Shown: one piece after another, positions 41,062 to 62,298 of the stretch | How the letters are laid out: each line of letters opens with the position of its first letter | Numbering within the stretch: position 1 is the first letter of the stretch | From: Planctomycetaceae bacterium | Lineage (GTDB): Bacteria > Planctomycetota > Planctomycetia > Planctomycetales > Planctomycetaceae | Assembly (NCBI GenBank): GCA_021732845.1 | Contig: JAKFUF010000013.1 | Span: 1 to 64,000, forward strand | Direction: 5' to 3' | DNA length: 64,000 bases | Notes under the pieces: generated by a model | The model's input: only the letters and a program-made list of their open reading frames with translations | The model's database searches: none | What the model was told of the DNA's origin: nothing | Position numbers and translations under genes: made by a program

Positions 41062-41179
41062 GGCCACACATTCAGTCGAAAATAAGCAAATCAAAAATCG
41101 AAATTGACGCAGGTTGCATTCCTTGACGCCGCATGGCATTGTGAGGACGCACTGCGTTTCCTGCCACGCTGGAACGATC

Positions 41180-42454
41180 ATGAGCCACCAAGATTTCCTC
41201 GCCCAGCACACCGCGTTGACCCGGCGGTACTTTCTTCAAGCCGGAGTTCTGGGACTGGCCACCGCTCCGCTCCTGGCCAGCGCTGTCGCCAATGCCGGCG
41301 AGGATCCCGCGGCTCCGCCCAAACATGTCAAACCGGACAAAGGTGGAGCGAAACTGGAACCCTACTTCACGCCCTCCGAGGACTTTCGCGATGTGTCGCG
41401 CGGCAAGCCCCAGCCACACTCCCTCCCCGACGAGAAGAAACGCGAAGTGGGGCTGACCCGCGAGACGTGGCAACTGGAGGTCTTCAGTGACCCGGACAAA
41501 CCGGCCAAACTCCTCAAGCCGATGACCAAGGCCAAGGGGACCGCGCTCGATTTCGCCAGCCTGCTGAAGTTGGGTGAAACGCATGCCGTGCGGTTTCCCA
41601 AGGTGATGACCTGCCTGAACCTCGGTTGTCCGCTCGGGATGGGAATCTGGGAGGGCGTGCCGCTGCGGGAGGTGATCTGGCTGACGCAGCCCAAAGACAA
41701 CCTGCGGCGGGTGTTTTACTACGGCTATCATAACGACGACCCGCAACAGATGTTTCGCAGTTCGCTGCCAATTGGCCGGGTGCTGGAAGACCCCGCCGAC
41801 CTGCCGCCGGTCATCCTGTGCTACAAGCTGAACGGCGAGTGGCTGGATTCCGAGCGTGGCGGACCCGTGCGACTGGTCGTGCCCGAGGCGTATGGCTTCA
41901 AGTCGATCAAGTGGCTGACCCATCTGGTGCTGACCAATCTGGCCCACGCCAACGATACCTATGCCGAGCAGAACAACGACGTCGACAGCCCGCTGAAGAC
42001 CTTTGCCGCCACGCTGGTGGCTCCCACGACAGCAAAAGCGAATGAGCCACTGGCCGTTTCGGGGTATGCCCAAGTCGGCATGGCGGGGCTGGCCAAGGTT
42101 CAAGTCTCGCTGGAATCGAACGCCACTCCCCGGCCCGAACAGGACCCGTGGTTCACCACCGCACCATGGGTCGACGCCGAATTGCTGCCCGTACCGAAGC
42201 AATGGCCGGTGCTGGGGAACGGCCAGGTTCCTCCCGCCACGCTCGGGTTTGATGCGGCGGGTGTGCCACAGTCATGGCCGATGCGGCTCACCAAGGCGCA
42301 CTGGGCGATTGTCCTGCCTGGCGTCGCAGCCGGCGAATACTCACTGCGCTGCCGGACGATTGATCTGCAGGGCCACGCACAGCCCCTGCCCCGCCCCTTC
42401 CAAAAATCGGGCCACGCGGCGATTGAGTCGATTGTGGTCAAAGTGACGGCCTGA
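41180..42454 (+). CDS. Sulfite-oxidase-like molybdopterin oxidoreductase
   Basis: 424 residues with a Tat signal, TRRYFLQAGVLGLATAP, at 14-30, as expected for a cofactor-loaded periplasmic enzyme. The molybdopterin domain includes LKLGETHAVRFPKVMTCLNL, GCPLGMGIWEGVPLREVIW and ERGGPVRLVVPEAYGFKSIKWL. The C-terminal Mo-co dimerisation domain (LAVSGYAQVGMAGLAKVQVS .. AHWAIVLPGVAAGEYSLRCR) is present. The Cys in VMTCLNLGCPLG is the candidate Mo ligand, offset from the usual C-x-G-N context, so activity as a true sulfite oxidase is uncertain. No cytochrome partner is adjacent. Confidence 0.85.
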   Translation: MSHQDFLAQHTALTRRYFLQAGVLGLATAPLLASAVANAGEDPAAPPKHVKPDKGGAKLEPYFTPSEDFRDVSRGKPQPHSLPDEKKREVGLTRETWQLEVFSDPDKPAKLLKPMTKAKGTALDFASLLKLGETHAVRFPKVMTCLNLGCPLGMGIWEGVPLREVIWLTQPKDNLRRVFYYGYHNDDPQQMFRSSLPIGRVLEDPADLPPVILCYKLNGEWLDSERGGPVRLVVPEAYGFKSIKWLTHLVLTNLAHANDTYAEQNNDVDSPLKTFAATLVAPTTAKANEPLAVSGYAQVGMAGLAKVQVSLESNATPRPEQDPWFTTAPWVDAELLPVPKQWPVLGNGQVPPATLGFDAAGVPQSWPMRLTKAHWAIVLPGVAAGEYSLRCRTIDLQGHAQPLPRPFQKSGHAAIESIVVKVTA

Positions 42455-44165: not shown

Positions 44166-44774
44166 ATGGCCAAGCCACTTGTCCTGCAGTGGGGCGATCG
44201 CGACCTCGCGTTCAGCATGAACAAGGTCGATCGCAGCAAGCTCTACGGCTACAAGGAGGTCGAGGCCATTGACGACAAGGGTCGTGGCTGCGAGCTGGCG
44301 ACGCTGGCCGCGGACGGGCATACCGTGGTCGGCCGCGGCGGGACGGCGCTCTGCCAGCTCTCGCCGGACGGCTCGTGGCGCGACAAGTCCCAACTGCGGC
44401 CGGTCGACATTGATGGCCACGAAATTCAAAGCGTGCCGTCGTCGTTCAGCGCTCCCATCAAGCTCCTGGACACGGTGACCTATGACGAATACCTGCGGCA
44501 CAACATCCGCTCGGTCTATCAGATGACGGTCGATGCGGATTTGACCGACCTCATCGCGGAGCTGAAGCGGGGGACGATTTTTTCCTTCCCCTACAGCTAC
44601 CGGGGCGGGCTGGAGGCAGACGCCGGCTTCCTGCTGCAGGGAGACGATGGAAATCTGTTCCTGGCTGTCGGGAACCCGACCAAGGTTGAGTTTATCGGCC
44701 TCCAGCAGGTGGCCGTGATCGAGGAGGAAGAGGAACTTGACGAGACGGAACTCATGGACTTCGACATGATTTAG
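44166..44774 (+). CDS. Unrecognised protein, first gene of the ligase operon
   Basis: 202 residues, start at ATG 44166. I do not recognise the family. It is beta-rich: LVLQWGDRDLAFSMNKVDR, a VEAIDDKGRGCELATLAADG segment, VVGRGGTALCQLSPDG, DKSQLRPVDIDG, then a more helical middle (TYDEYLRHNIRSVYQM) and LIAELKRGTIFSFPYSYRGG. The C-terminus is strikingly acidic, VIEEEEELDETELMDFDMI, as found in DNA mimics or in proteins that bind basic partners; the ligase downstream has a Lys/Arg-rich repeat tail that could be such a partner. The next gene starts 23 bases after it. Confidence 0.65.
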   Translation: MAKPLVLQWGDRDLAFSMNKVDRSKLYGYKEVEAIDDKGRGCELATLAADGHTVVGRGGTALCQLSPDGSWRDKSQLRPVDIDGHEIQSVPSSFSAPIKLLDTVTYDEYLRHNIRSVYQMTVDADLTDLIAELKRGTIFSFPYSYRGGLEADAGFLLQGDDGNLFLAVGNPTKVEFIGLQQVAVIEEEEELDETELMDFDMI

Positions 44775-44797
44775 CTCTGTCTTTGCAAGGCGCTTGA

Positions 44798-45544
44798 ATG
44801 CCGGAAATCAACATCGCCAACAGCACCGGACGGGACGCCGTTGTCGCGTTGGAAAGCGTCGGGTCTCCGTTCAAAGTCCGCTGGGTCGACGAGCAGGGCC
44901 GGCAAGTCGAGAGCGCGCGGCTTCTCAAGGGGCCGATCGACCGCGATCTCAGCGCGCTTGTGGCTCAATTCGGGGAGCTGCCCAATGTCGGCAAGGCACT
45001 GCTGGAGGGCGACCCCGAGATCGATCTCGAAAACTCGGGGCGGCTGCTGCGCGAAACCTCCCGCGTGTACGTCGACGCCAACCGGCAGATTGTCCACAGG
45101 GTGCAGTTCTGGGAGATTGTCCGCAACCCGGACGGCACACAGCGCGAGCGGCGTCCGCGCAAGCTGATCGACCCGAACCTGGCTGGCGACCAGCCGCTGC
45201 GCTGGACCGGCGTGTACATCAAGCGTGAACAGGCGTGCCGCAAGTTCGTCTTTTCCAGCAAGGTGCAACTGCACCATACCAACGGCCTGACCTACGACTT
45301 CCTGTACGGCATGGCCAAGGAGCTGGAGGCGAAGGACTGCCTGATGCTGCTGGGGGCCGGGCCAAAATCCAAAGAACCGCTCATCCTGCGTCGCGGCGGC
45401 TCCCCCTACCGCGGCTTCCTCGAAGGTCGGACGCAGGGCGACAAATACCTGCTCGTCCTGCATTTCTCCGATCTCGAATTGAAAGCGCCCGCCGTGGTCG
45501 AAGCCACTGCCCCATCAGCCAGTTCCGCGGAGGCCGCCCAATGA
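44798..45544 (+). CDS. Unrecognised protein, second gene of the ligase operon
   Basis: 248 residues. It overlaps the ligase gene by four bases (ATGA), so the two should be translated in a fixed ratio. No named domain: the N-terminal part has VRWVDEQGRQVESARLLKG; the centre RQIVHRVQFWEIVRNPDGTQ; then IKREQACRKFVFSSKVQLHH, DFLYGMAKELEAKDCLMLLG and the beta-type ILRRGGSPYRGFLEG. The tail is Ala/Ser-rich. Stop overlap and position imply a function tied to the ligase, for example as loading or specificity subunit; that is inference. Confidence 0.68.
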   Translation: MPEINIANSTGRDAVVALESVGSPFKVRWVDEQGRQVESARLLKGPIDRDLSALVAQFGELPNVGKALLEGDPEIDLENSGRLLRETSRVYVDANRQIVHRVQFWEIVRNPDGTQRERRPRKLIDPNLAGDQPLRWTGVYIKREQACRKFVFSSKVQLHHTNGLTYDFLYGMAKELEAKDCLMLLGAGPKSKEPLILRRGGSPYRGFLEGRTQGDKYLLVLHFSDLELKAPAVVEATAPSASSAEAAQ

Positions 45545-47571
45545 GCGCCCTGCTCGACAAGTCACGCGTTGAAATCAAGCTGGGGCAATACGGCGTGGCT
45601 TCGTCCACCGCCCTGTCCGACCCCTCCATTCTGGGACGCGTGCAGGACTACCGCCGCAAGGCGAGCGCGCGGATGCAGCCGCTTGACCGCGACGACGTTT
45701 CGAAGCGGATCCCGGCCGCGGAATACCATGTCAGCCGCAAGGTCGACGGGGAGTTCACCGTCCTGGTGTTTCGCGACGGCGAAGTGTTCGCGATCAACCC
45801 CGGCGGCACCGTGCGTGTCGGAATTCCCTGGCTGGAAGAGGCCGCCAAGCTGCTGGGCGCCGCGAACGTCAAAGAAGCCCAGATTGCCGGTGAACTGTAC
45901 GTGGCGCGCGACGACCGGCGGCCGCGTGTGCATGATGTCACCACTGTCGCGCGGCAGCCACAGTCGGCGGCCGAAGTCGGGCAGTTGCGGTTCGCGGCAT
46001 TCGACATTGTCTCCTTGAATGGCGATGCTTCACCGAAACCGTTCGTCGAGGTCTGGAAGACGATCGAAAAGCTGTTCGGGAAGGGACGCTTCGTTCATCC
46101 GGTCGAAGCCAAGTTTGTGCCCGACATCGAAGGCATCGCGAGACTGTTCGAGCAGTGGGTGGTCAAGGAAGACGCCGAGGGTCTGGTCGTCCGCAACGAC
46201 GCGGCGGGCACCTTCAAGATCAAGCCACGGCATACGCTGGATGCCGCGGTGATCGGGTTCACGGAATCGGAGGGTGACCGTCAGGGGATGATGCACGACC
46301 TGCTGCTGGCGGTCATGCGACCGGAGGGCACGCTGCAGGTGCTGAGCCGGGTGGGGGGTGGCTTCGCCGAGGAGCAGCGCCGCACGATGCTGTGCGACCT
46401 CAAGGACATGGTGGTTGACAGCGAATATGCCGAGGTCAACGGCGACCACGTGGCTTATCAGATGGTGCGGCCGGACTGGGTCGTGGAGATCAGTTGCCTC
46501 GACCTGATTTCCCAGACGACGCGCGGAGGAACCATCGACCGCATGGTGCTCGATTATCACGCCAATGGCTCGAACAGTTATAAGGTCGTCACCAGGCTGC
46601 CCCTGGCCACGGTCATTTCGCCACAGTTCATTCGTCGCCGGGAAGACAAGACCGCCACGCCGCAGCACATCCGCATTGCCCAGGTGACCGACATCGTCGA
46701 GGTCCCGGGCATGGACAAGGACTCCCGGCAGATGACGCTGCCTGTCAGCCAAATCCTGAAGCGCGAGGTCTTCACGAAAGACCTCAAAGGCCAGACGATG
46801 ATCCGCAAGTTTCTGCTGTGGAAGACAAACAAGGAAACCGCGAGCGACGAATTCCCCGCGTACGTCGCGCACTACACCGATTTCAGTCCCAACCGCAAGG
46901 ACGCCCTCGCCCGCGAGATCCGCGTCTCGAGTTCCAGCGAACAGATTGAAACGCTGTTTGAAGGGTTCAAAGAAGCCAACATCAAGGCGGGTTGGCAGCG
47001 GATCACGGTGGGTACGGCTTCGGCATCCACGGTGGCCCCCGTTGTGGCTGCCCCCTCAGCGGCTGCCCCCTCAGCGGCTGCCCCCGCAGTGGCTGCCGCT
47101 GCCGTGGCGGCACCAATTGTGAACACTCCTGTGGAAGCGGTTGTTCCTGCGGCACCAGCCAAGAAGAGCCGCGCCAAAAAGGCGGCTGCCGCCGTCGAAG
47201 CCGTCGCCCCCGTCGCTGCGGAGCCAGTTGCCGCTGTCGTGAACACTCCTGTGGAAGCGCTTGTCCCTGCCGCACCAGCCAAGAAGAGCCGCGCCAAGAA
47301 GGCGGCGGCGGCCGTCGAAGCCGTCGCCCCCGTCGCTGCGGAGCCAGTTGCCGCTGTCGTGAACACTCCTGTGGAAGCGCTTGTCCCTGCGGCACCAGCC
47401 AAGAAGAGCCGCGCCAAGAAGGCGGCGGCGGCCGTCGAAGCCGTCGCCCCTGTCGCTGCGGAGCCAGTTGCCGCCGTCGTCGCTGATGTCTCCAGCCTTC
47501 CCGTGGCAACCGATTCGACGATGGCCGCTTCGGAACGAAAGAAAAGAGCATCAAGGAAAAAGTCCGGCTGA
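45541..47571 (+). CDS. ATP-dependent polynucleotide ligase with extra C-terminal domain and repeat tail
   Basis: 676 residues. It would seal nicks in DNA (or possibly RNA) through a lysine-AMP intermediate. Nucleotidyltransferase motifs are in order: I SRKVDGEF (adenylated K67), III IAGELYVAR (E118), IIIa FAAFDIVSLNG, IV EGLVVRND (213-220), V FKIKPRHTLDAAVIGF (226-240). An OB-fold-like section follows, with the GxxR..FxxxRxDK pattern seen as SPQFIRRREDKTATP (360-374). Residues 390-490 form an additional domain (KFLLWKTNKETASDEFPAYV, HYTDFSPNRKDALAREIRVS) not normal for LigB/C/D ligases. The tail is Ala/Val/Lys-rich with three exact-length 40-residue repeats. No Ku gene or LigD polymerase or nuclease domains are present. 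Confidence 0.82.
   Translation: MSALLDKSRVEIKLGQYGVASSTALSDPSILGRVQDYRRKASARMQPLDRDDVSKRIPAAEYHVSRKVDGEFTVLVFRDGEVFAINPGGTVRVGIPWLEEAAKLLGAANVKEAQIAGELYVARDDRRPRVHDVTTVARQPQSAAEVGQLRFAAFDIVSLNGDASPKPFVEVWKTIEKLFGKGRFVHPVEAKFVPDIEGIARLFEQWVVKEDAEGLVVRNDAAGTFKIKPRHTLDAAVIGFTESEGDRQGMMHDLLLAVMRPEGTLQVLSRVGGGFAEEQRRTMLCDLKDMVVDSEYAEVNGDHVAYQMVRPDWVVEISCLDLISQTTRGGTIDRMVLDYHANGSNSYKVVTRLPLATVISPQFIRRREDKTATPQHIRIAQVTDIVEVPGMDKDSRQMTLPVSQILKREVFTKDLKGQTMIRKFLLWKTNKETASDEFPAYVAHYTDFSPNRKDALAREIRVSSSSEQIETLFEGFKEANIKAGWQRITVGTASASTVAPVVAAPSAAAPSAAAPAVAAAAVAAPIVNTPVEAVVPAAPAKKSRAKKAAAAVEAVAPVAAEPVAAVVNTPVEALVPAAPAKKSRAKKAAAAVEAVAPVAAEPVAAVVNTPVEALVPAAPAKKSRAKKAAAAVEAVAPVAAEPVAAVVADVSSLPVATDSTMAASERKKRASRKKSG
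47119..47478 (+). repeat. Three tandem 120-base repeats in the ligase tail
   Basis: Units at 47119-47238, 47239-47358 and 47359-47478 are nearly identical. Each encodes 40 residues containing KKSRAKKAAAAVEAV, alternating hydrophobic Ala/Pro stretches with basic clusters. Just before, at about 47040-47090, CCCTCAGCGGCTG-type 15-base repeats occur. The near identity indicates recent expansion or gene conversion. Confidence 0.9.
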
Positions 47572-47610
47572 CGATTGTCGCTCGACCAAGGATCGTGCCT
47601 CGGTCGGGTC

Positions 47611-48750
47611 ATGCCTGCCGCGTTTGAAAGTCAGGCCGTGAGCATCAGTCAGAACCCCGTTGGAGAGGCCAGGCCCTTGAAGGGGCAGCGCGTCTGCGTC
47701 ACGGGGACTTTGGCCGCGATGTCTCATTCCGAGTTTGGCACCCTCGTGGCGGAGTGCGGGGGGCGGTTCCGGCAGCACCCCGTCAAGCGGCAGTGCCTGT
47801 TGGTCATCGGGGCGAATGGCTGGCCCGCCCATCGGGATGGCTCGGCCTCGACGGTGTTTAAACGCGCGAGGAACCTTAAAGACAGCGGTTTTCCGATTGA
47901 GTTTCTGTCCGAGGAGGAGTTTTTTCGGCGGATTGGACTGGTCGACCGCGAGGAATCGCTCCGCGGGCGGTTTACCATTTCGGAACTGTCGCACTTGCTG
48001 GGGGTGACAGCGGCCAGCCTCAGACGCTGGACGCGTCTGGGACTGATCCAACCGGTGGAGACGATCCACCGGTTCTCGTACTTCACGTTCGCCGAAGTCG
48101 CCAGCGCCCGCCGGTTGTGCGAACTGGTGTCGGCCGGCGCCTCGCCCGCGCGCATCAGGCAGGGCCTGGAACAATTCCGGGCGTGGCTGCCGGCCGCCGA
48201 CGTCTCGTTCGCACAACTGTCTTTGGTGGAGCGCAGCGGCCAGATCCTGATGCGGCTGAGGGGCGCGCTCGTCGCGCCCAGCGGCCAACGGCACTTTGAT
48301 TTTGAGACGCTCGACGCCGACGAACCTGGACCGCTTGTGTTTCAGACGAGCGTGGACCCCGCGCTCGGTCCCTTTGACAGCCTGTTCGACCAGGCGCTGT
48401 CGCTGGAGGACCGCGGGCGGTTCACGGAAGCGGCCGACGCCTATCGGCAGGCGAGTCGCTTGTCGCCCAAAGATCCGGCGGTGCATTTCAACCTCGGAAA
48501 TGTGCTGTACCAAATGGGCAGACTGGTCGAATCGCTGGACAGTTATCGACAAGCCCTGCGGTTTGATCCGGAGTACGCGGAAGCCTGGAACAACCTTGGA
48601 AATGTCTTGTGGCAGACCGGTGTGCTGAGCGGTGCCCTGCAGGCTTTTGACAAGGCCCTGGCCCTGGTGCCGAACTACGCCGACGCCAGACACAATCTTG
48701 AAGTCCTGCGGGGCAAGCTCGCCGCCGCCCCCTTGGAAGTCGTCTCCTGA
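47611..48750 (+). CDS. BRCT-MerR-TPR fusion protein
   Basis: 379 residues with three recognisable parts. Residues about 22-105: a BRCT domain, LKGQRVCVTGTLAAM, FGTLVAECGGRF, CLLVIGANG, FPIEFLSEEEFF, the layout of the domain at the end of bacterial NAD+ ligases. Residues about 118-185: a MerR-type winged helix, FTISELSHLLGVTAASLRRW, TRLGLIQPVE, YFTFAEVASARRLCELVSAG. Residues about 260-370: three TPRs, ALSLEDRGRFTEAADAYRQA, NLGNVLYQMGRLVESLDSYR, NLGNVLWQTGVLSGALQAFD. A protein that can bind DNA or phosphopeptides and also recruit partners is implied. It starts 39 bases after the ligase stop. Confidence 0.83.
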   Translation: MPAAFESQAVSISQNPVGEARPLKGQRVCVTGTLAAMSHSEFGTLVAECGGRFRQHPVKRQCLLVIGANGWPAHRDGSASTVFKRARNLKDSGFPIEFLSEEEFFRRIGLVDREESLRGRFTISELSHLLGVTAASLRRWTRLGLIQPVETIHRFSYFTFAEVASARRLCELVSAGASPARIRQGLEQFRAWLPAADVSFAQLSLVERSGQILMRLRGALVAPSGQRHFDFETLDADEPGPLVFQTSVDPALGPFDSLFDQALSLEDRGRFTEAADAYRQASRLSPKDPAVHFNLGNVLYQMGRLVESLDSYRQALRFDPEYAEAWNNLGNVLWQTGVLSGALQAFDKALALVPNYADARHNLEVLRGKLAAAPLEVVS

Positions 48751-48766
48751 CACTCGGAACCCACTC

Positions 48767-49357
48767 ATGTACTACGAACGACTCTCCATCGAGCCGACGG
48801 ACGACGGCTGGATTCGCTTCAGTTGCCCCGACCGGCTGTGGGCTGGAGAGTCGGCCAACTCGCTGTTGCAACCAAAGCGTGGCTTCGACCTCGACTCGAT
48901 TCTGACTGCGGTTTTTGCGACGGGCTGGACCGAACTGCGCGACGGTCAGTGGAGAATCCTCAGTTCTCAAAACTGTCGAGATCTGGTCTGTTTGCTCGAT
49001 GAAATGCTGGAGTACTTCGACGGCCCTCAGCAACCTCATCCGGAGGTGTTGCAGATCCAGGAGCAGGTCGATGCGCTGCTTGCTGACGACCCGCACGCAG
49101 GTGCGGCGTTCAACCTGACGCTTTGGCACTATGCCAGACTGGACCTGCTGCTTCGTGAGAACCTGGCGGACGCCGCCCGTTCGCTGGATGGCATCTGGGT
49201 GCGGGAAGATCACTTGCTCGACGTTCGTGGCGTTCGCACCAGCACGATTCGCAAGTTTTGCCAGGATGCCCAACTGGCGGATGTCTTCACCCGACGCATG
49301 GCCCCCAGCGCCCGCACGCAAGCCATCGTCGCAGAGCGCGGGAAAAGCGCCGGGTAG
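48767..49357 (+). CDS. Unrecognised protein, last gene of the ligase operon
   Basis: 196 residues, beginning 16 bases after the BRCT-MerR-TPR gene and so probably co-transcribed with it. No family recognised. Features: ERLSIEPTDDGWIRFSCPDRLW, GFDLDSILTAVFATGW, a helical stretch CRDLVCLLDEMLEYFD and HPEVLQIQEQVDALLADDP, then LWHYARLDLLLRENLADAARS and a C-terminal basic end. The gap to the next, convergent gene (49358-49484) contains a degenerate CGCGAAT-type repeat. Confidence 0.63.
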   Translation: MYYERLSIEPTDDGWIRFSCPDRLWAGESANSLLQPKRGFDLDSILTAVFATGWTELRDGQWRILSSQNCRDLVCLLDEMLEYFDGPQQPHPEVLQIQEQVDALLADDPHAGAAFNLTLWHYARLDLLLRENLADAARSLDGIWVREDHLLDVRGVRTSTIRKFCQDAQLADVFTRRMAPSARTQAIVAERGKSAG

Positions 49358-49484: not shown

Positions 49485-52400
49485 TCACGGTGTGGTTTCC
49501 CCCAACGCCGTATCTGCTTTCGCCGGCCGCGCCAGCACGCGCCAGAAATCCGCGGCGTTCTGTGTTCGCGTCTGATACTTCTTCAAATAAGCCCGGTGCT
49601 TTTCAGTGTTCGGGTACTGTTCATCAGCGCGGTACGGGTATCCGCTCATCGCCTGGAAAGGCAGAGGTTCCACATCCTGGCTGTGGACCACGTTCAAGTC
49701 GCAGTCCTTGTCCCAGCCGCTGTTGTAGAGGAGAAAATCGCGCTTCCAACCGGGGGGCGGTGGGACGGCGGGCGGTGCGAATTCCAGCGTCAATTCATCG
49801 CCGGCCCCAAAGATCACCAGGCAGTCGTCTTCGTCCTGCACCAATTCCGTGACATCCCCAAACCGGGTGAACATGCCGCGCATTGTCGGCCACTTCATTT
49901 CGGTGGTCACCTCGTCATAGGCATAACGGTGCGGGCCAAAGTTCTCGGGGTAGCGGATGGCGGAATACCCCCGGTAATGCAGGTCGGCCTTGGCAAGCGG
50001 CAGATGGGTGAGCTGCACCTCGGCTGGCTGCTCATCCACCGTGAAGTTCACGGCATCCCAATAAATCTCCATGTTGGTCATGATCCGCACGCGGTAGTCC
50101 TTCGCGGGGAACAGACCGGTCAGGTCCACGGCGATTGTCTTCGTCTTGCCACCAGGAAAACCCATGAACGGGCGGACCTCCTGCCAGTCGCCCCGCGCGT
50201 CGGGCACCCACAGGGATGGCGGTTTCATCACCGGAGCGTGGCTCTCCTGCGTCAGGTTGATGTTCAGTGAGGTGGGGATCGGAAACATCCAGCCAGTCAG
50301 GAACAGCGTGATCGCCTTGGGATCCTCCAAGTTGCCGAGATCCAGCTCGAGGAAGTGGTCTTCGACCACCCCCTGCCCTTCCCAACTCTTGAACCCCCGC
50401 AGGTAACGCTCGTCCTCATCGCGCAGAGTAGGAAGCACATCATTTCCGAACTTGTCGCGCGCGGCGACAGGAACGTGCGGGGTCTTGCGCGTATGGACCT
50501 TGAACGCCGCCAGTTCGCCTGAGCCCACCTTTTCATTGGACACAATATTGACGTCGGCGGGATGATCGACGGCAATCAACTCGGTGCGGTCGAGATAGGT
50601 CGCCTCCCACAGCTCCTCGGTCATCTGCATCGAATACCGGCCGTCTTTCAACGCCAGTTGCGAGCCCGGAATCAGCAGATACTCCCACGCCCGTGGCTTG
50701 GCAAAAATCCCGTCGGCAAACTGCAACCCGAGCGGCGCAGCCCAGCAGGCGTCGGTGCAGAATTCGTACTTTTCCCCAGTCCAGGTATACAGGTAAGGGC
50801 ACGAGCCCTTGGGGTCGTGAATGCGGCAGATGGTCTGGTTGCTGCCGGGCATCACCGCGGGCTGTGGGATGCCGTTCGTCCAGACAATGCGGGCAGCCTC
50901 GGCCTCACGCTCGCCCATGCCGAAGTGCGTGATCTGCCCGGTGACAAGCTGGGCCTGATACTTCACGCCGCTCTGAACTTCGATCAGGCTGCCGATCCCC
51001 AGATGATTGACATCGCCCCCCTGCTTGTCCTCGGTCTCGCCCTGGGCGCGGATGGCGAGCCACTTGTTTTCGTTGCCGCCCCGGTTCTGGGCACCGAACA
51101 AGCCTTTCGACGAACGGCCGATCAGGTCCAGATCGCCGTCGTTGTCGATGTCCGCCGCAGACACAGCCTGGAGGTTCTCCTGCGAATTCCAGAGCGATGG
51201 CAGAATCTCGAAGCGGTTTCCCGAGCGACCGCGCCAGATCGTTCCCACCCGCTTCTCGGTGGCCGGACCGACTTCGGACCAGGCAACAAAATCCAAGCGC
51301 CCATCGTTGTCGTAATCCCACAACCGTCCCTGCGAATACGGCGTGAACGTCACGACCGTCGACCTCAGTGGCTCAGGCGCGTTGGCCGGCACCGTGCGCG
51401 TCGTCACCAACCGTACCGCGTCCGGGCAAAAGCCCAAGAGATCCCATGACAGGTTGCCGTCCACATCCAGCAGTTGCAGACAGGTGGCGCTGTGCAGATC
51501 GTTCAACGGCCCAGTGAACGGAACCCAGCGCAGGCCGCCGTGCCGCAGGTTCTCCAGCCAACCAATCTGGCCGCCACCCACGGCCACGATGTCCAAGTCG
51601 ACATCGCGGTCCCAGTCGACCGCCAGCAGTGACACCGGTTTGAAGTCCTTCGGCGGCATCGCAGACCGGGCGCTGATGTCGACATATTGGGGTGCTGATC
51701 CGGTGGCGGTCTTGCCCACATCCGCCCAGACGGCCATTCCGTCCGCCGTCGACAACACCAGATCCAGATCGCCGTCGTGATCGACATCGGCGAGGACCGC
51801 TGTCTCTATTCCCCGCAAGGCCTTGAATGCGGGGCTCTGTTCCACCGGCTTCAGCGTCCGTTTGCCATCGGCAAGTTCATTCCAAAACACCTGCAGGCCA
51901 GAGTCGCCATACACCACGACATCCACATCCCCCACCTGGCAGTTGCCGGTCCGGACCTTGGTCACCTCCGGGCCGGCCGGCGCTGCGGCAGCGCCGGGAA
52001 CCTTGTTGTCACGATCGAGGTCCGCGACCAGCAGCCCGCGGGCACCGGGCAGAGTCCCGACCTCGCAGAGCTTCGACCATGTCCCCTTGCCGTCGATGGC
52101 CAGGGCGTGGACCACAAGCTGCGACTTGGAGACCGCAATCAGGTCTGGCGTGCCGTTCTGATCGAAGTCGGACAGGTTGAGAGCCACGACGGGCGCCTCT
52201 GCCGCTTCGGCCGGCCCAGGCCGGTCCGCAAAGGTGACTGGAATCGGTTGCGGCTCTGGCTGTCCGGCAAACAGATCCGCCGCGCAAGTGGCCGGCAGGA
52301 ACTCATGCACCACATAAGCCAGCGGATGCCGGCGCAACCGGCGCAGGTCGCTTTGCGCCCATTCCTGCGGCTTCGTCAAAAAGCCCACGCGGCTCACGGC

Positions 52401-53198
52401 CCCCAGCACACCCTGCCAGTCGCCAGCCTTCAACTTCACTTCCGCCTCGCCCAGATACTTTTCGACATCGTTGCCGCCGCGTTTGATGCTCTCCACCACC
52501 GGCTGCACCGTGGGCCGAAAGACCTTGATGGTCTCCGCCAACGCCGGCTCCTTCGCCTCGGCTTGAACCACCATCAATTCCAGCAGGACCGGCAGGCTCT
52601 TGGGATCCAGGGCATACAGCCGGTCGAGGGCAGCGCGGGCTTTGACGGCATATTCCGGTTCCGTCAGTGTGAAGGCGTTGTTCTTGAGCAGTTCATAAAT
52701 CGACCATTGAATGACCATGTCCTCGGGAGCGAGCTGAGCCGCCTGTTCCCAGGCCACCAGCGCCTCCTTCGGTTGATGCAGCAGTTCCTGGAAAAAATAG
52801 GCCGTGAGAAACGCCGTGCTTACCGCCTGTGGCTCAACCTTCTGCAACTCCTCCAGCGGCGGATACCAGGCCACTGGAAATGGGTCCGACGGTGCCCGCT
52901 CCGTCCCGTCGGGCAGTTTGACTCCAATCAGCATCCGCGAGATGACCAGGTTCCGCACGCCGACCGGGTCATTGGGCAGCAGTTTCGTCAGCTCCGCCAA
53001 GGGCTCTTCGGCTTGCACACTGTTTCCGTCCTCAAGGTAACCTACGCCGATATTCCGCAGGCTGGCGTACTTCTCGCACGCCACCCTTTGCTCGGACAGA
53101 TACTGCTCATGCTGCGTCGACCAGGCGATGTAACCGCCAATTGCCAGCAGCATGACGCCAAGAAGAACCCAGAGTGCGATGCGTTTTGGTGCGGGCAT
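49485..53198 (-). CDS. Large CRTAC1-like protein with TPR, FG-GAP and ASPIC/UnbV domains
   Basis: 1237 residues. The ATG at 53198 precedes a signal anchor (IALWVLLGVMLLAIGGYIAW). Residues about 35-270 are TPR-like helices (NIGVGYLEDGNSVQAEEPLA, EALVAWEQAAQLAPED). Next come FG-GAP/VCBS calcium-binding loops: DFDQNGTPDLIAVS, DVDHDGDLDLVL, DWDRDVDLDIVA, DYDNDGRLDFVA, DIDNDGDLDLIG. An ASPIC/UnbV module follows, with GSLIEVQSGVKYQAQLVTGQ and FGMGEREAEAARIVWTNG. The remaining 400 residues (from about PYLYTWTGEKYEFCTDACW) form a beta-rich region I cannot name. It is envelope-anchored, facing outward, and downstream of the FtsX permease on the same strand. Confidence 0.86.
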   Translation of the reverse strand: MPAPKRIALWVLLGVMLLAIGGYIAWSTQHEQYLSEQRVACEKYASLRNIGVGYLEDGNSVQAEEPLAELTKLLPNDPVGVRNLVISRMLIGVKLPDGTERAPSDPFPVAWYPPLEELQKVEPQAVSTAFLTAYFFQELLHQPKEALVAWEQAAQLAPEDMVIQWSIYELLKNNAFTLTEPEYAVKARAALDRLYALDPKSLPVLLELMVVQAEAKEPALAETIKVFRPTVQPVVESIKRGGNDVEKYLGEAEVKLKAGDWQGVLGAVSRVGFLTKPQEWAQSDLRRLRRHPLAYVVHEFLPATCAADLFAGQPEPQPIPVTFADRPGPAEAAEAPVVALNLSDFDQNGTPDLIAVSKSQLVVHALAIDGKGTWSKLCEVGTLPGARGLLVADLDRDNKVPGAAAAPAGPEVTKVRTGNCQVGDVDVVVYGDSGLQVFWNELADGKRTLKPVEQSPAFKALRGIETAVLADVDHDGDLDLVLSTADGMAVWADVGKTATGSAPQYVDISARSAMPPKDFKPVSLLAVDWDRDVDLDIVAVGGGQIGWLENLRHGGLRWVPFTGPLNDLHSATCLQLLDVDGNLSWDLLGFCPDAVRLVTTRTVPANAPEPLRSTVVTFTPYSQGRLWDYDNDGRLDFVAWSEVGPATEKRVGTIWRGRSGNRFEILPSLWNSQENLQAVSAADIDNDGDLDLIGRSSKGLFGAQNRGGNENKWLAIRAQGETEDKQGGDVNHLGIGSLIEVQSGVKYQAQLVTGQITHFGMGEREAEAARIVWTNGIPQPAVMPGSNQTICRIHDPKGSCPYLYTWTGEKYEFCTDACWAAPLGLQFADGIFAKPRAWEYLLIPGSQLALKDGRYSMQMTEELWEATYLDRTELIAVDHPADVNIVSNEKVGSGELAAFKVHTRKTPHVPVAARDKFGNDVLPTLRDEDERYLRGFKSWEGQGVVEDHFLELDLGNLEDPKAITLFLTGWMFPIPTSLNINLTQESHAPVMKPPSLWVPDARGDWQEVRPFMGFPGGKTKTIAVDLTGLFPAKDYRVRIMTNMEIYWDAVNFTVDEQPAEVQLTHLPLAKADLHYRGYSAIRYPENFGPHRYAYDEVTTEMKWPTMRGMFTRFGDVTELVQDEDDCLVIFGAGDELTLEFAPPAVPPPPGWKRDFLLYNSGWDKDCDLNVVHSQDVEPLPFQAMSGYPYRADEQYPNTEKHRAYLKKYQTRTQNAADFWRVLARPAKADTALGETTP

Positions 53199-53247
53199 GG
53201 GGAAGACTGCGGGCGCGTGGTCTTGGGGATGCGGATGAGTGGGGGAA

Positions 53248-53275
53248 TGACAAATGACAAATGACAAATGACAAA
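53248..53275. repeat. TGACAAA heptamer repeated four times
   Basis: Four perfect consecutive copies of TGACAAA lie about 50 bases upstream of the start codon of the CRTAC1-like gene. Copy-number slippage here could move or alter its promoter or leader. Confidence 0.85.
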
Positions 53276-57323: not shown

Positions 57324-60300
57324 TCAACGCCAAAGTCGCTTTTGGTTCCCGGCTCCCTTTGGTGCTGGTGCCGTTGGCCGGGGGGGCATTGTTTTGCCCA
57401 GCTCAATGGGCCTTAAGCCCGGCACGATCTCACAGGCCAGCTTCACCATGTGCGGATGGCAGGTGAAGAACAAAACCTGAGCCGAGTAGGAAATCTCCGC
57501 CAGCACGGCGAGCGTCTGCCGGCTCCGCGCCTCATCGAAGTTGACCAGCACATCGTCAATGACAATCGGCAGCGGCTGGTTGTGGTCACAGTAGTGCAGC
57601 ACATAGGCGAGGCGGATGGCCAGATACAACTGCTCGCGCGTGCCGGTGCTCATCTGGTCCGGCGTCCGCTCGGCACCGTCGGAACGGCGGACGAGGATGC
57701 TTTGTTTGCCGCCGCTGCTGCGGTCGAACTCGACATACCGGCCCCCGGTCATCTCGCGGAGCAGGCGCGAGACCGTGGCGATCATTTCGGGCTGGTTCTC
57801 CTTTTCGAAGCGGCTGACGGCGGCCTTCAACAGGTGCTTCGCGTAAATCAGCGGCATGTACCGGTCGACCTCGGTCACCAACTGCGAGCGTTTGCTGGCT
57901 TGTTCCGCGCCCAGCTTCGCCGCCTCTTCAGATCCATCGAGCTGCCGGAGCGCAGCGCGGGCCAGCGCCTCATCGCCGTCGGCCTTCTTTCGCGCCGCTT
58001 CCGTCGCCTGCACGGCTGCATTCAGGTCGTGCTCCTGGCTTTGCAGCAATGAGAATTCACTGGTCGACAAGGAGTGTTCGAACTCCGCGGGATCGTCCCC
58101 CGCGCGAATCAGTTCCACCTCACGGCGAAGCTGGTCGATCTCCCGGTCCAGCCGCGCGGCCTGCTCTGCCGAGGCGACGACTTCCAGAAACTGCTCTTCC
58201 GTCGACGCTGCCGCCGATGCAAACAGGCGCTCCCGGTCCGCCTCGGCCTGCCGCAGGCGTGAGCCACGGGATTCGAGGGATTGATGCAAGTGAGCGAGCT
58301 TCTGGGACAGTTGCTCGTGCTTGCGCTGGGCTTCGGCGGCCCGCTCGACCTGCTCATCGACTTTCTTCACGGCCAATTCGGCGGGGTCGTCCAGCAGTTC
58401 CGGTGCGAGCGTTTCACAGAGTGCCCGCACGCGCCTGTCGAATTCTTCGACGCGGCCCTCCATCGCCCCGATCCGCTCATCTTCGACGGGAAGGCCATCC
58501 AGCCGGACACGGGTCGTCTTCAGTTTGTCGATCACGGTCCGGGCCACTTCGGCGTCCCATTCCGCCGGGAGGTTGAGCCGGCTGAGAACGGCATTCCATT
58601 CCGTGTCGGCGGCGGTTTCGAGGGACTGAAGTGCCCGCAGCTCGTCGTCATACTTCGCCAGTTGATTTTCGAGCCGGCGAATCTCCTTCTGCAATTCGAC
58701 CGTTCGCCGGCTGCCTTCGCGCTCGTGCTCCACCGCCTTCCGGGCCGCCACGAGCATGCCGGAGACATCTTCCGTGGCGAGGCCGTACGCCGCTCTCAAC
58801 CGTTGCTCAAATGTCTGGATGCGTTCCTGTAACGGGGTCAATTCGGCGGCTCGATCGCCACACTCACTGATTGTCACGCAGACCGTTGCGTGCTGTTCGA
58901 GCCACCCGCGCATCGCCTCGGGGGTCAGCGGGACAAATCCACACGGCTCCCAGAGCGAAACCCACTCAGCCTGCAGCGTGGCTTGCTTCCCCTCCACCGC
59001 CGCAATCATGGCCCGCTTCTCTTTGAGCCTCGCCGTGATTTCCTCCAGCCGGCGGCGGGACTCTTCACGAATCGCCACTTCGCTCGCCTGGTCGTAGATC
59101 TGGTCGGCCAGACCATCCGCCTGCCGGACCGCCTGCTCATATCCGTCGGGCAGGAGCACCGCACCGTTGTGTTTCAGCCAGGCGGCCGTCTCGGCGTCGA
59201 GCTGCCGTGCATCCGCAGTTTCCGGATTGATATAGCGGGACCGAATGAGAGTCCAAGCGACATTCCGATTGGCGCGCGCGGCATCGCGCTCCTCCAGACT
59301 GGGGACGGCACGTCCCCGCTGCGCGGCAGCCAGAGCCTCGTCGACCTTCTTCCGTTCGCCCTCATCTTTGGCGGCCGAGAGCTGTTCCACGCGCAGTTGT
59401 TCCGCCAGCCCGGCATGGCGTGTTTGAAATTCGACGACCGTCTGAACGCGAGGAACGCACAACGCCTCAGGCTCTGGTGTCTCGGCCGGGAGCGGAGGCG
59501 TGAGCGCGCGGACTTGCATGGTCAGTTTGCGCTGCAGTTTTGCGAGTTCGACGCGGCCTTTCTCCAGTTGTTGTCGGTCTGCCGCATAGGCGGCCTCGTC
59601 AGCGACGATGCCGGCAAGCGCGGTCACGTTCGTGGATGCGCCGATCGTCTCCAGTTCTTCCCGGGCTCGGTGCAAGTTGGCGGCGTCGCCATCGCGCCTC
59701 GCGCTCAGCTTCGTGAGATCAGACCGGCGCTCGTGGCGTTCCTTGATGACGCGGTCGATCTCCGCACGGGTCACGGCGTCCACGGTGAACTCCCGCAGAT
59801 CGACATGGGACCAGCCGGGACGCAGTTCCTGCAGTTCGCGGTCGATCTGCTGCTGCAGTTGCTCGCGTTGGCGGCGACGGTCGGGAAGCTGATCGCGGGC
59901 CTCAATGAACGACTGCCGCAGTTCGAGGCAGGACGCGATCTCCGCCCGAAAGGACACGGCCAGTGGGTCCAGCCGCAAAGCCGCCCGCTCGCGTTCAGAC
60001 AGTTCGATCTCTGTCGTTTCCTGCGCCCGCTCGGCCTCCAAGGTTTTGAGCGTCCTGCCGAGGTCCACGTACGCCTGTCGCGCATTGGCGGCCAGCGGCG
60101 GAAGAGATCCCAGCTCGGCCCGCTCGCGGTGCCGTTGCTGCAATTCCCACCATTTGGGCCAGGCCCGCACCCGCTTGCCGATTTGCGCATGCTCGCGACG
60201 CAAGGCGGCAAGCTGGTGGTGCAGGGTCTTCGCCTGTTCCGCGGCCTTGGTGGCGGCGTCCACCGCCTGCTGATAGTTGTCGGGACGCAGCGAGCGGTCC

Positions 60301-60887
60301 TTGAGATCCTTCGTCAGCCGCTTCAGGTCAATGAGAAGGGCATTGATGATCGGTTTTGAACCGCCGCGCTTGAACAGCTTTTCCGCCTCACCCTCAAGAT
60401 CGGCCACGACTTTGTCGGGACTGGTGGTCCCGCCCAGGCTCCCGCCAAACAGGGCCGACTGCATGCTCTCGTGTTTGAGGCTCGCTTCACCCTTGCTGAG
60501 CTGGTCCAGACCGAAGGCGAATACAGACTCGAACAACGTCCGGTCGGCATGATCCAGCATCTTCAGCCAGCCATCCTCGCCGAGTTCGGTCGCCGTCCCG
60601 TCGATCTTGATCGACACCTTGTCCTTGTTTCCCTTGCGGCGGCGCAGTTCCACCTCGCGGCCGTCCTGCAGCTCAAGCTGCGCGACGCCGGCCATCTCCC
60701 CGTGCCCGCCAAAGTCGTACGGGGTGCGGACGGGAAAATCAAACAGCAGGCCACGGAGAAACTCCAGCAGGGTCGTCTTGCCGGCCTCGTTGGGGCCGTA
60801 GATCACCTGCAGGCCGTCGCCGGGAAAGTCCAGGTCACATTCGTGGAAATGGCCAAACCGGTTGATGCGCAGACTGCGAATTTTCAT
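57324..60887 (-). CDS. YhaN/Rad50-like SMC-type ATPase (AAA family)
   Basis: 1187 residues. Its ATG overlaps the stop of the exonuclease gene by four bases, as in sbcD-sbcC and yhaO-yhaN pairs. Walker A is GPNEAGKTTLLEFLRG (32-47). The N-terminal lobe includes VEL(RRR)KG and FGLDQLSKGEASL; a long, mostly helical arm (about 200-1000, with heptad-rich Glu/Arg/Leu content) folds back; at the end come the ABC signature MSTGTREQLYLAIRLAYVLH, Walker B PIVIDDVLVNFD and the H-loop LFFTCHPHM. Such proteins use ATP to control a nuclease partner that resects DNA ends. No zinc-hook CxxC is obvious in the coiled coil, which favours YhaN over SbcC. Confidence 0.92.
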   Translation of the reverse strand: MKIRSLRINRFGHFHECDLDFPGDGLQVIYGPNEAGKTTLLEFLRGLLFDFPVRTPYDFGGHGEMAGVAQLELQDGREVELRRRKGNKDKVSIKIDGTATELGEDGWLKMLDHADRTLFESVFAFGLDQLSKGEASLKHESMQSALFGGSLGGTTSPDKVVADLEGEAEKLFKRGGSKPIINALLIDLKRLTKDLKDRSLRPDNYQQAVDAATKAAEQAKTLHHQLAALRREHAQIGKRVRAWPKWWELQQRHRERAELGSLPPLAANARQAYVDLGRTLKTLEAERAQETTEIELSERERAALRLDPLAVSFRAEIASCLELRQSFIEARDQLPDRRRQREQLQQQIDRELQELRPGWSHVDLREFTVDAVTRAEIDRVIKERHERRSDLTKLSARRDGDAANLHRAREELETIGASTNVTALAGIVADEAAYAADRQQLEKGRVELAKLQRKLTMQVRALTPPLPAETPEPEALCVPRVQTVVEFQTRHAGLAEQLRVEQLSAAKDEGERKKVDEALAAAQRGRAVPSLEERDAARANRNVAWTLIRSRYINPETADARQLDAETAAWLKHNGAVLLPDGYEQAVRQADGLADQIYDQASEVAIREESRRRLEEITARLKEKRAMIAAVEGKQATLQAEWVSLWEPCGFVPLTPEAMRGWLEQHATVCVTISECGDRAAELTPLQERIQTFEQRLRAAYGLATEDVSGMLVAARKAVEHEREGSRRTVELQKEIRRLENQLAKYDDELRALQSLETAADTEWNAVLSRLNLPAEWDAEVARTVIDKLKTTRVRLDGLPVEDERIGAMEGRVEEFDRRVRALCETLAPELLDDPAELAVKKVDEQVERAAEAQRKHEQLSQKLAHLHQSLESRGSRLRQAEADRERLFASAAASTEEQFLEVVASAEQAARLDREIDQLRREVELIRAGDDPAEFEHSLSTSEFSLLQSQEHDLNAAVQATEAARKKADGDEALARAALRQLDGSEEAAKLGAEQASKRSQLVTEVDRYMPLIYAKHLLKAAVSRFEKENQPEMIATVSRLLREMTGGRYVEFDRSSGGKQSILVRRSDGAERTPDQMSTGTREQLYLAIRLAYVLHYCDHNQPLPIVIDDVLVNFDEARSRQTLAVLAEISYSAQVLFFTCHPHMVKLACEIVPGLRPIELGKTMPPRPTAPAPKGAGNQKRLWR

Positions 60888-62182
60888 GCGGACTCGTCTC
60901 CTGCCGCAATCAGGTGGCTCAACAGGAGCGTCTCGGCGTCGCGCAGCCACGCGACTTGACGGTCGCGATCCTTCAAATAGTCTCCACCCGTGCCACTCGT
61001 CTCCTCGGCCTCGGTCTCCGACTGCAATTCGCCTCCCACCTTCGCCGCGAGATCCGCGGTGTCGGGCAGGCTCGACAGCACATTGGGATCCGCCACGAGT
61101 GCCGAGACATCGCGGAGCAGTTGTCCGAGCAGGTCCTGCCGCCCGCGCATGGCGTCCAGATCGAGGGGCGACTGCGTCCGAAAGTAGACTTTCTCAATCC
61201 AGACATCGTCGCCGAAGTCCGCGGCGAGACTGCGGATCTCAGCCGTGAACTGCTGCCGGGCGGCGTCTTTGGCGAGCAGGGCATGCACCGCGCAGCGCCC
61301 CGTGTACTCCAGCCGGGCCGCGACAAGTCGCCCGTCCGCCTCCTGAATCAGTTCCCGCAGACGGTCGCGCGTCGCGTCCAGCAGCGCATCCGCGTCGTCC
61401 GGCGGTTGCAGTGGGATGGTGACGCGCGACCAGCGGACGACATCGGTCTCCCGAAATTCCAAATTCTGAATCTCGCCCCCGTTGGTGTCGTTCACGGTCA
61501 CCAGCAGGCAGCCCTTGCGGCCGGTCTCCCGCACGTGCCGTCCCTGCGTGTTGCCGGGGTAAATCACATGCGGCAGCCGATGCAGCACCGCATGCTCATG
61601 CACGTGGCCCAGGGCCCAGTAGTGATACCCCTTCGCCACCAGCTCCTCGACCGGACACGGAGCGTACGGCGCATGCTGCGTGTTGCCGCCAGTGTTCGTA
61701 TGCAGCAGGCCAATGTTGAAGCAGCCCGCCACCGGGGCTGGATAGAGGGGGACGAGATTGTCGGTCACTTCACGCTTGGGATAACTCATCCCGTGCAGCG
61801 CGACTGGGAGCGTCGGATGTCGAACCGTCTCCGGCTGCCGGTGATCAAACAACGTTACATTCTTAGGCCAGGGCACATGACGGGTCGCTTCCTCGACGGA
61901 ATCGTGGTTGCCCAGGATGAGGTACACCGGAATTTCGGCCTGATCCAGCCGCCGCAACTGCGCGGCCGCCGCCAGGGCCGCCTGAAAGTCACGGACATCA
62001 GTGTCGAACAGGTCGCCAGCGATGATCAGGAAATCCACCCGCTCTTCCAGGCACAGGTTCACCACACGGTCAAACGCCTGCCGCGTGGCGATGCGGAGCC
62101 GTTCGACGGGCGCTCCAGGGTAGGCCTCCAAGCCACGGAGCGGGCTGTCGAGGTGAATGTCGGCCGTGTGAACGAAACGCAT
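60884..62182 (-). CDS. SbcD/YhaO-like DNA exonuclease subunit
   Basis: 432 residues. The ATG at 62182 directly precedes RFVHTADIHLDSPLRGLE (first metal motif). Further phosphodiesterase motifs: FLIIAGDLFDTD, YLILGNHDSVEEA, IGLLHTNTGG and WALGHVHEHAVL. It should be a Mn2+-dependent 3'-5' exo/endonuclease that works with the ATPase encoded immediately downstream; the two overlap. The C-terminal 150 residues are a helical capping region of YhaO type (RLRELIQEADGRLVAAR, LLGQLLRDVSALVADP). The pair is divergent from the protease-like gene across the 503-base gap 62183-62685. Confidence 0.93.
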   Translation of the reverse strand: MRFVHTADIHLDSPLRGLEAYPGAPVERLRIATRQAFDRVVNLCLEERVDFLIIAGDLFDTDVRDFQAALAAAAQLRRLDQAEIPVYLILGNHDSVEEATRHVPWPKNVTLFDHRQPETVRHPTLPVALHGMSYPKREVTDNLVPLYPAPVAGCFNIGLLHTNTGGNTQHAPYAPCPVEELVAKGYHYWALGHVHEHAVLHRLPHVIYPGNTQGRHVRETGRKGCLLVTVNDTNGGEIQNLEFRETDVVRWSRVTIPLQPPDDADALLDATRDRLRELIQEADGRLVAARLEYTGRCAVHALLAKDAARQQFTAEIRSLAADFGDDVWIEKVYFRTQSPLDLDAMRGRQDLLGQLLRDVSALVADPNVLSSLPDTADLAAKVGGELQSETEAEETSGTGGDYLKDRDRQVAWLRDAETLLLSHLIAAGDESA

Positions 62183-62298
62183 TGAGGGCAGCCTTGCGGT
62201 CTCTTGGGTACCAGTTCGCAATCCCGAATATTAACGCCTTGCCTGAACAAGTGAAAACTGACAGCACCTGAGATTCAGCGCTGCCCCGTTTTCAAAAG

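Follow-up and report, generated by a model that had tools for sequence, protein, structure and literature searches.

A conserved three-gene cassette of Planctomycetota encodes an ATP-dependent DNA ligase and two proteins with predicted Ku-like folds

In the bacterial Ku-LigD system of non-homologous end joining, a Ku homodimer is encoded together with an ATP-dependent ligase, and the C-terminal extension of Ku binds both DNA and LigD (PMC9638933). In eukaryotes, the clamp is made of two distinct subunits, Ku70 and Ku80; the C-terminal end of human Ku80, EEGGDVDDLLDMI, is the contact for DNA-PKcs (PMC8549938), and human Ku rings that remain trapped once ligation is complete are removed by the AAA+ protein p97 (PMC8073936). 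Surveys of bacterial end joining search for Ku and LigD by sequence (PMC7719229), and the literature that we searched contained nothing on a planctomycete Ku or on a two-subunit bacterial Ku. Here, we describe a cassette of three genes, A, B and C, in a window of 64,000 nucleotides (positions 1-64,000, forward strand, of contig JAKFUF010000013.1) from the genome of a Planctomycetaceae bacterium (GCA_021732845.1; G000). C encodes a ligase, and A and B are two mutually dissimilar proteins that, according to structural models, probably each take the Ku-core fold across the length of the protein. We consider it fairly likely from these models that the three constitute a divergent end-joining system in which a heteromeric Ku-like clamp works with a dedicated ligase; our confidence in the fold alone is higher than in this full mechanism.

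The original prediction, made from the DNA sequence of the window, read the locus as a system of five codirectional genes, A to E. All five plus-strand open reading frames and their spacing are as it described, with gaps of 23 (A/B), 39 (C/D) and 16 (D/E) bases and a four-base overlap, ATGA, at the B/C junction. A contig scan with the single ligase sequence returned one relative only, from another Planctomycetaceae genome (L002), in which A-B-C is present and an opposite-strand HEAT-repeat-like gene takes the place of D and E. Searches of larger genome sets found the cassette in 4 of 150 genomes of the order (with the ligase), 7 of 392 of the phylum (with B) and 6 of 297 of the class (with A), that is, in a patchy distribution across the phylum comprising ~2% of genomes. 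A, B and C co-occur in all 15 of the examined planctomycete genomes in which any one of them was found, save for a single A that is missing at a contig end (G093), and every cassette genome with complete contigs contains all three. Their order is kept in 12 loci from six families, usually with the four-base B/C overlap, and two further genomes (G656 and G657) have A and B-C on different contigs. Pairwise identities of the three proteins go closely together across ten loci (correlations of 0.94-0.97), as expected under co-inheritance.

D and E do not share this pattern. Both are absent from all 12 A-B-C loci examined; D is matched in 39 of 48 genomes, the majority of which lack the cassette, and E turned up in 1 of 120 genomes, namely G000. 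The five-gene operon was therefore rejected, and A-B-C is the real conserved unit, to which only the first three of the five genes belong. Thus, the proposal that an unusual ligase and two upstream unknowns are conserved together held up in the gene-neighborhood search, but its extension to D and E did not. The BRCT domain that had been read in D is absent from the Pfam listing, which gives MerR and TPR domains, and is recovered at the N-terminus of D through NCBIfam models that end in BRCT (PRK06195 at 2.3e-10, residues 19-107; LigA at 0.003). NCBIfam alone supports the domain, and the argument drawn from a BRCT encoded next to the ligase falls because D lies outside the cassette. The D family (BRCT-MerR-TPR) is almost universal in the planctomycete family of this genome, and a second copy is present in G000 (G000:C34:33186-33860).

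C scores above the Pfam cut-offs for DNA_ligase_A_M (PF01068; 34.6 bits, cut-off 26.2) and DNA_ligase_A_C (PF04679; 32.8 bits, cut-off 27.5), and its best profile match in the PDB is an archaeal DNA ligase (4.9e-20). Motifs I, III, IIIa, IV and V are conserved in each aligned homologue that retains the nucleotidyltransferase domain, and the OB domain has a conserved motif VI-like FxRxRxDK in which R367 and D369 are invariant. Judged by its sequence, which holds the complete set of catalytic motifs, C is a true ATP-dependent ligase, in agreement with the original assignment. It shares the nucleotidyltransferase and OB domains and motifs I-VI with known ATP-dependent ligases (the archaeal LigB type, ligase I and the ligase domain of LigD). 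By contrast with these, C has no N-terminal DNA-binding domain, carries E after KxDG instead of the usual x-R, and has a unique C-terminal domain of ~115 residues. This extra domain, which had already been noticed along with the repeats of the basic tail, is conserved in 13 of 13 aligned homologues, one of which is without the catalytic domain.

A maximum-likelihood tree was computed from 13 cassette ligases and 25 other ligases of cassette and control genomes. The cassette ligases form one clade (support 100/99), apart from LigD-type and other ligases; as the tree is midpoint-rooted, the placement of this clade among the ligase families does not follow from it. C was rejected as a LigD on account of this separate clade and of a TIGR02779 score of 58.5 bits, with a cut-off of 227.75. 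By Pfam, C contains no polymerase, phosphoesterase or nuclease domain. A further ATP-dependent ligase-like gene of G000 (L134; G000:C3:8763-9134), with the motif SEKLDGVRAYW, falls into a separate clade.

A and B, like E, have no family match in Pfam, NCBIfam or PHROG. We built AlphaFold models on shallow alignments of 14 (A) and 13 (B) homologues, with a predicted local distance difference test score (pLDDT) of 76 for A (model m4a52638ba7f1) and 65 for B (model m006e2bd38b0a). When these models were searched against the PDB with Foldseek, the top 50 rows for each were Ku or Ku-containing complexes, with best E values of 7.6e-5 for A and 5.5e-5 for B and a probability of 1.00 for both. VIA-align placed 152 residues of A onto residues 2-174 of Mycobacterium tuberculosis Ku (Z 10.8, 5.5 Å) and 122 residues of B onto human Ku80 (Z 12.8, 3.6 Å), and over 350,000 chains Ku ranked first for both proteins. 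Among viral predicted structures, B had a single significant match, phage Dylan Ku at E 1.5e-4; the next one, at 0.35, was weaker by over three orders of magnitude.

The same barrel also occurs in SPOC and INTS13/14 domains, which raises the alternative of Ku/SPOC-type barrels that have lost DNA-end binding: A and B would then act as a scaffold or sliding clamp and tether C for ordinary nick sealing during excision repair or recovery from stress. In B, these domains reach Z values of up to 11.7, about 1 below Ku, and such a scaffold would also suit a ligase without polymerase or nuclease domains. In A, both kinds of domain rank below Ku, with SPOC at Z 9.1 and under, and only 101 residues of A align to a SPOC domain of 123 residues, compared with 152 to M. 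tuberculosis Ku. A has ~70 residues beyond SPOC at the position where Ku has its bridge. An insertion follows the second barrel strand at this position in both proteins (~21-100 in A and ~21-130 in B); its pLDDT is mostly 40-75, and this poor prediction again favors the scaffold. With Ku in first place for both proteins and with the added length of A, we regard loss of end binding as unlikely.

Several observations weigh against a Ku-like clamp. In addition to the close SPOC scores of B and to the bridge region being the least certain part of both models, the predicted template modelling scores are moderate (0.61 for A and 0.54 for B). No A or B member matches PF02735 even at E values up to 10, comparisons of the A and B profiles with 14 planctomycete Ku proteins give probabilities below 1%, and the comparison of A with B gives 0.2%, that is, no detectable sequence similarity. 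PDB profile searches with A and B likewise yielded no sequence proof of Ku homology. Finally, one C (G287; L036:8027-8740, minus strand) is without its whole catalytic domain and keeps the OB-like and extra domains. It starts directly after B, and A and B of this cassette are intact; at least one variant would thus be unable to ligate alone, and may depend on a trans-acting ligase or serve a purpose other than catalysis. Ku family membership of A and B is not established by sequence. Because the predicted fold matches Ku but the sequence does not, we term A and B Ku-like rather than Ku. The earlier statement that the locus is not of the Ku/LigD type and holds no Ku gene is correct for the sequence, with neither PF02735 nor LigD, but probably wrong for the fold.

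Shallow alignments, moderate model scores and the lack of sequence-level Ku support could also mean that the resemblance is an accident of modelling and that an unusual ligase has, in A and B, two unrelated adaptors rich in beta structure. This would require two mutually dissimilar proteins, both encoded beside a ligase, to match independently the only clamp known to work with ATP-dependent ligases, and B to match Ku in two libraries. We consider such a coincidence very improbable.

The tails of the three proteins provide additional hints at their association. The acidic tail of A that had been pointed out earlier is real and conserved: it is always found on A, the last 25 residues have a net charge of -5 to -14, D198 and F199 are invariant in 14 homologues, and pLDDT stays below 50 from residue 178. 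Most lineages carry the lysine-rich tail on C; in family f50, the two members (L031 and L032) have it on B, and their C has none. B of L032 (G313; L032:8872-9552, minus strand) is broken near its C-terminus by an apparent frameshift, from a sequencing error or decay, and the other frame runs into the basic tail. This swap between C and B suggests that the two act in one complex, and an acidic tail on A combined with a basic tail on C or B fits one shared complex. The more specific proposal of direct contact between the acidic tail of A and the basic tail of the ligase is conjectural. The 14 local planctomycete Ku proteins mostly end in basic tails. In eukaryotic Ku70/80, one subunit has an acidic peptide with a hydrophobic end, the Ku80 contact given above, and A ends in EEEEELDETELMDFDMI; by sequence, the likeness is striking and probably convergent. 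The end of A, MDFDMI, also resembles the tip of SSB. A as a single-stranded-DNA-binding protein was not supported, as the fold search returned Ku.

Compared with bacterial Ku-LigD, the cassette shares the predicted Ku-core fold, the co-encoded ATP-dependent ligase, a basic lysine/alanine-rich tail and a patchy bacterial distribution. It differs in having two different clamp proteins without a PF02735 match instead of a homodimer, a ligase outside the LigD clade that lacks polymerase and phosphoesterase domains, and a basic tail that is usually on the ligase. With Ku70/80 it has in common two distinct, here predicted, Ku-core subunits; the fused vWA, SAP and Ku80 C-terminal domains and a counterpart of DNA-PKcs are lacking. 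We infer ring formation as a heteromer, end binding, joining and unloading. As two divergent Ku-like proteins, A and B would assemble into a mixed ring or clamp at the ends of a double-strand break and would recruit and position C, which would seal the break. A and B are probably where the extra C-terminal domain of C docks. The lysine-rich tail, carried by C or, in one lineage, by B, would bind DNA like the basic tail of bacterial Ku, and the acidic tail of A, with its terminal DFxM-type peptide, is a probable docking site for a partner. Once the break is ligated, the clamp may, by analogy with p97, be remodelled or unloaded by an AAA+ machine, either a MoxR-DUF5682-VWA set or an AAA+ domain fused to C. 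Repair of DNA ends or nicks, the role originally proposed, remains probable.

Both candidate machines are found with the cassette. In one genome (G288; L033:2404-5532, plus strand), C is fused via an intermediate region to an AAA+ ATPase domain (PF00004, 4.3e-40) that resembles IetA in PADLOC (1.4e-28). Downstream of the fusion are type I restriction genes, one for an HsdR into which a carboxypeptidase-regulatory-like domain is inserted and one for HsdM. SWIM-DUF5691-MoxR-DUF5682-VWA_CoxE operons and WGR-DUF4132 (MolR-like) genes are a frequent partner, adjacent in at least four genomes, and also occur in other genomes without the cassette. The cassette adjoins, or forms an apparent operon with, this set or part of it in L032 and L034 (G158); B-C is divergent from a set of this type in L149 (G657), and DUF5682, VWA and WGR-DUF4132 genes share the cassette contig in G414 (L035/L078). 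DUF5682 is present in 10 of 13 cassette genomes, compared with 5 of 46 controls (p 1e-5) and with 4 of the 21 controls that reach 5 Mb or more (p 0.001), both values ignoring phylogeny; in G000, DUF5682 loci are located elsewhere in the genome. WGR and DUF4132 proteins of Deinococcus radiodurans are under the control of DdrO, in the DNA-damage regulon of this regulator (PMC8533742), which links these partners to DNA damage. None of four LexA- or DdrO-type operator patterns was present in 11 regions upstream of A, and no mention of SWIM, MolR or WGR was found in the paper on MoxR-vWA conflict systems.

This association could instead make the cassette an accessory of the MoxR-DUF5682-VWA system (with SWIM, DUF5691 and WGR-DUF4132), providing repair or self-protection against a DNA-directed conflict, with the ligase mending damage that this system makes or senses. 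Operon-level linkage in L032 and L034, a common contig in L035 and L149, the co-occurrence of DUF5682 and the restriction genes next to the L033 cassette all speak for it. DUF5682, however, is lacking in three cassette genomes. Moreover, A, B and C have no match in PADLOC, which led us to reject a known anti-phage defence system, and no B match was found in viral contigs and no B or C match in plasmids. We deem an accessory role improbable, and it would be compatible with end joining. Canonical Ku was not detected in G000 (95.7% complete) and is present in 1 of 13 cassette genomes versus 13 of 46 controls; this trend falls short of significance (p 0.16).

The features of the locus are collected in Table 1. 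The flanking genes are apparently unrelated to the cassette and encode a molybdopterin oxidoreductase-like protein (41114-42454, plus strand) and an FG-GAP repeat protein (49485-53267, minus strand). An SbcC/SbcD-like pair lies ~8 kb from the cassette, where a gene for an AAA_27/SMC-like ATPase (57324-60950, minus strand) overlaps one for a calcineurin-like phosphoesterase (60884-62221, minus strand). In G657, an open frame of 1609 residues near A (L040:2-4828, plus strand) has no Pfam match at 1e-4.

Table 1. Coordinates of the cassette, its domains and the two downstream neighbors in the window
Feature	Position	Strand	Description
Gene A	44166..44774	+	202 aa; Ku-like subunit 1 (putative); predicted Ku-core fold residues 1-176
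A acidic disordered C-terminal tail	44697..44774	+	terminal peptide [LFVM]-D-F-x-hydrophobic(-hydrophobic)
Gene B	44798..45544	+	248 aa; Ku-like subunit 2 (putative); predicted Ku-core fold residues 1-235
Gene C	45541..47571	+	676 aa; stand-alone ATP-dependent DNA ligase
C nucleotidyltransferase domain	45541..46245	+	motifs I K67-V-D-G, III E118, IIIa F154-D155, IV E213-G214, V K226/K228
C OB-fold domain	46258..46656	+	PF04679 match 247-370; ends in motif VI-like SPQFIRRREDK (residues 360-370)
C extra C-terminal domain	46663..47010	+	~residues 375-490; hallmark REV-TK--KG----RK ... TDFSP-R--PL ... GW
C basic lysine/alanine-rich tail	47011..47568	+	120-bp unit x3 at 47119-47480
Gene D (BRCT-MerR-TPR)	47611..48750	+	neighbor outside cassette
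Gene E	48767..49357	+	neighbor outside cassette

Sequence-based surveys for Ku and LigD would miss the A-B-C cassette. We tentatively raise the idea, which we find plausible and stop just short of favoring, that a bacterial heterodimeric Ku unrecognizable by sequence, together with its own ligase and an AAA+ unloading machine, adds an independent architecture to the two of non-homologous end joining already described, bacterial homodimeric Ku-LigD and eukaryotic Ku70/80-ligase IV. If the reading of A-B-C as a Ku-like clamp with a dedicated ligase is true, bacteria have evolved or retained Ku clamps of two subunits, and end joining can be present in genomes that are scored as devoid of it. A small three-gene system of this kind could then reveal the workings of a mixed Ku ring, and of the removal of Ku from DNA, in a prokaryote.

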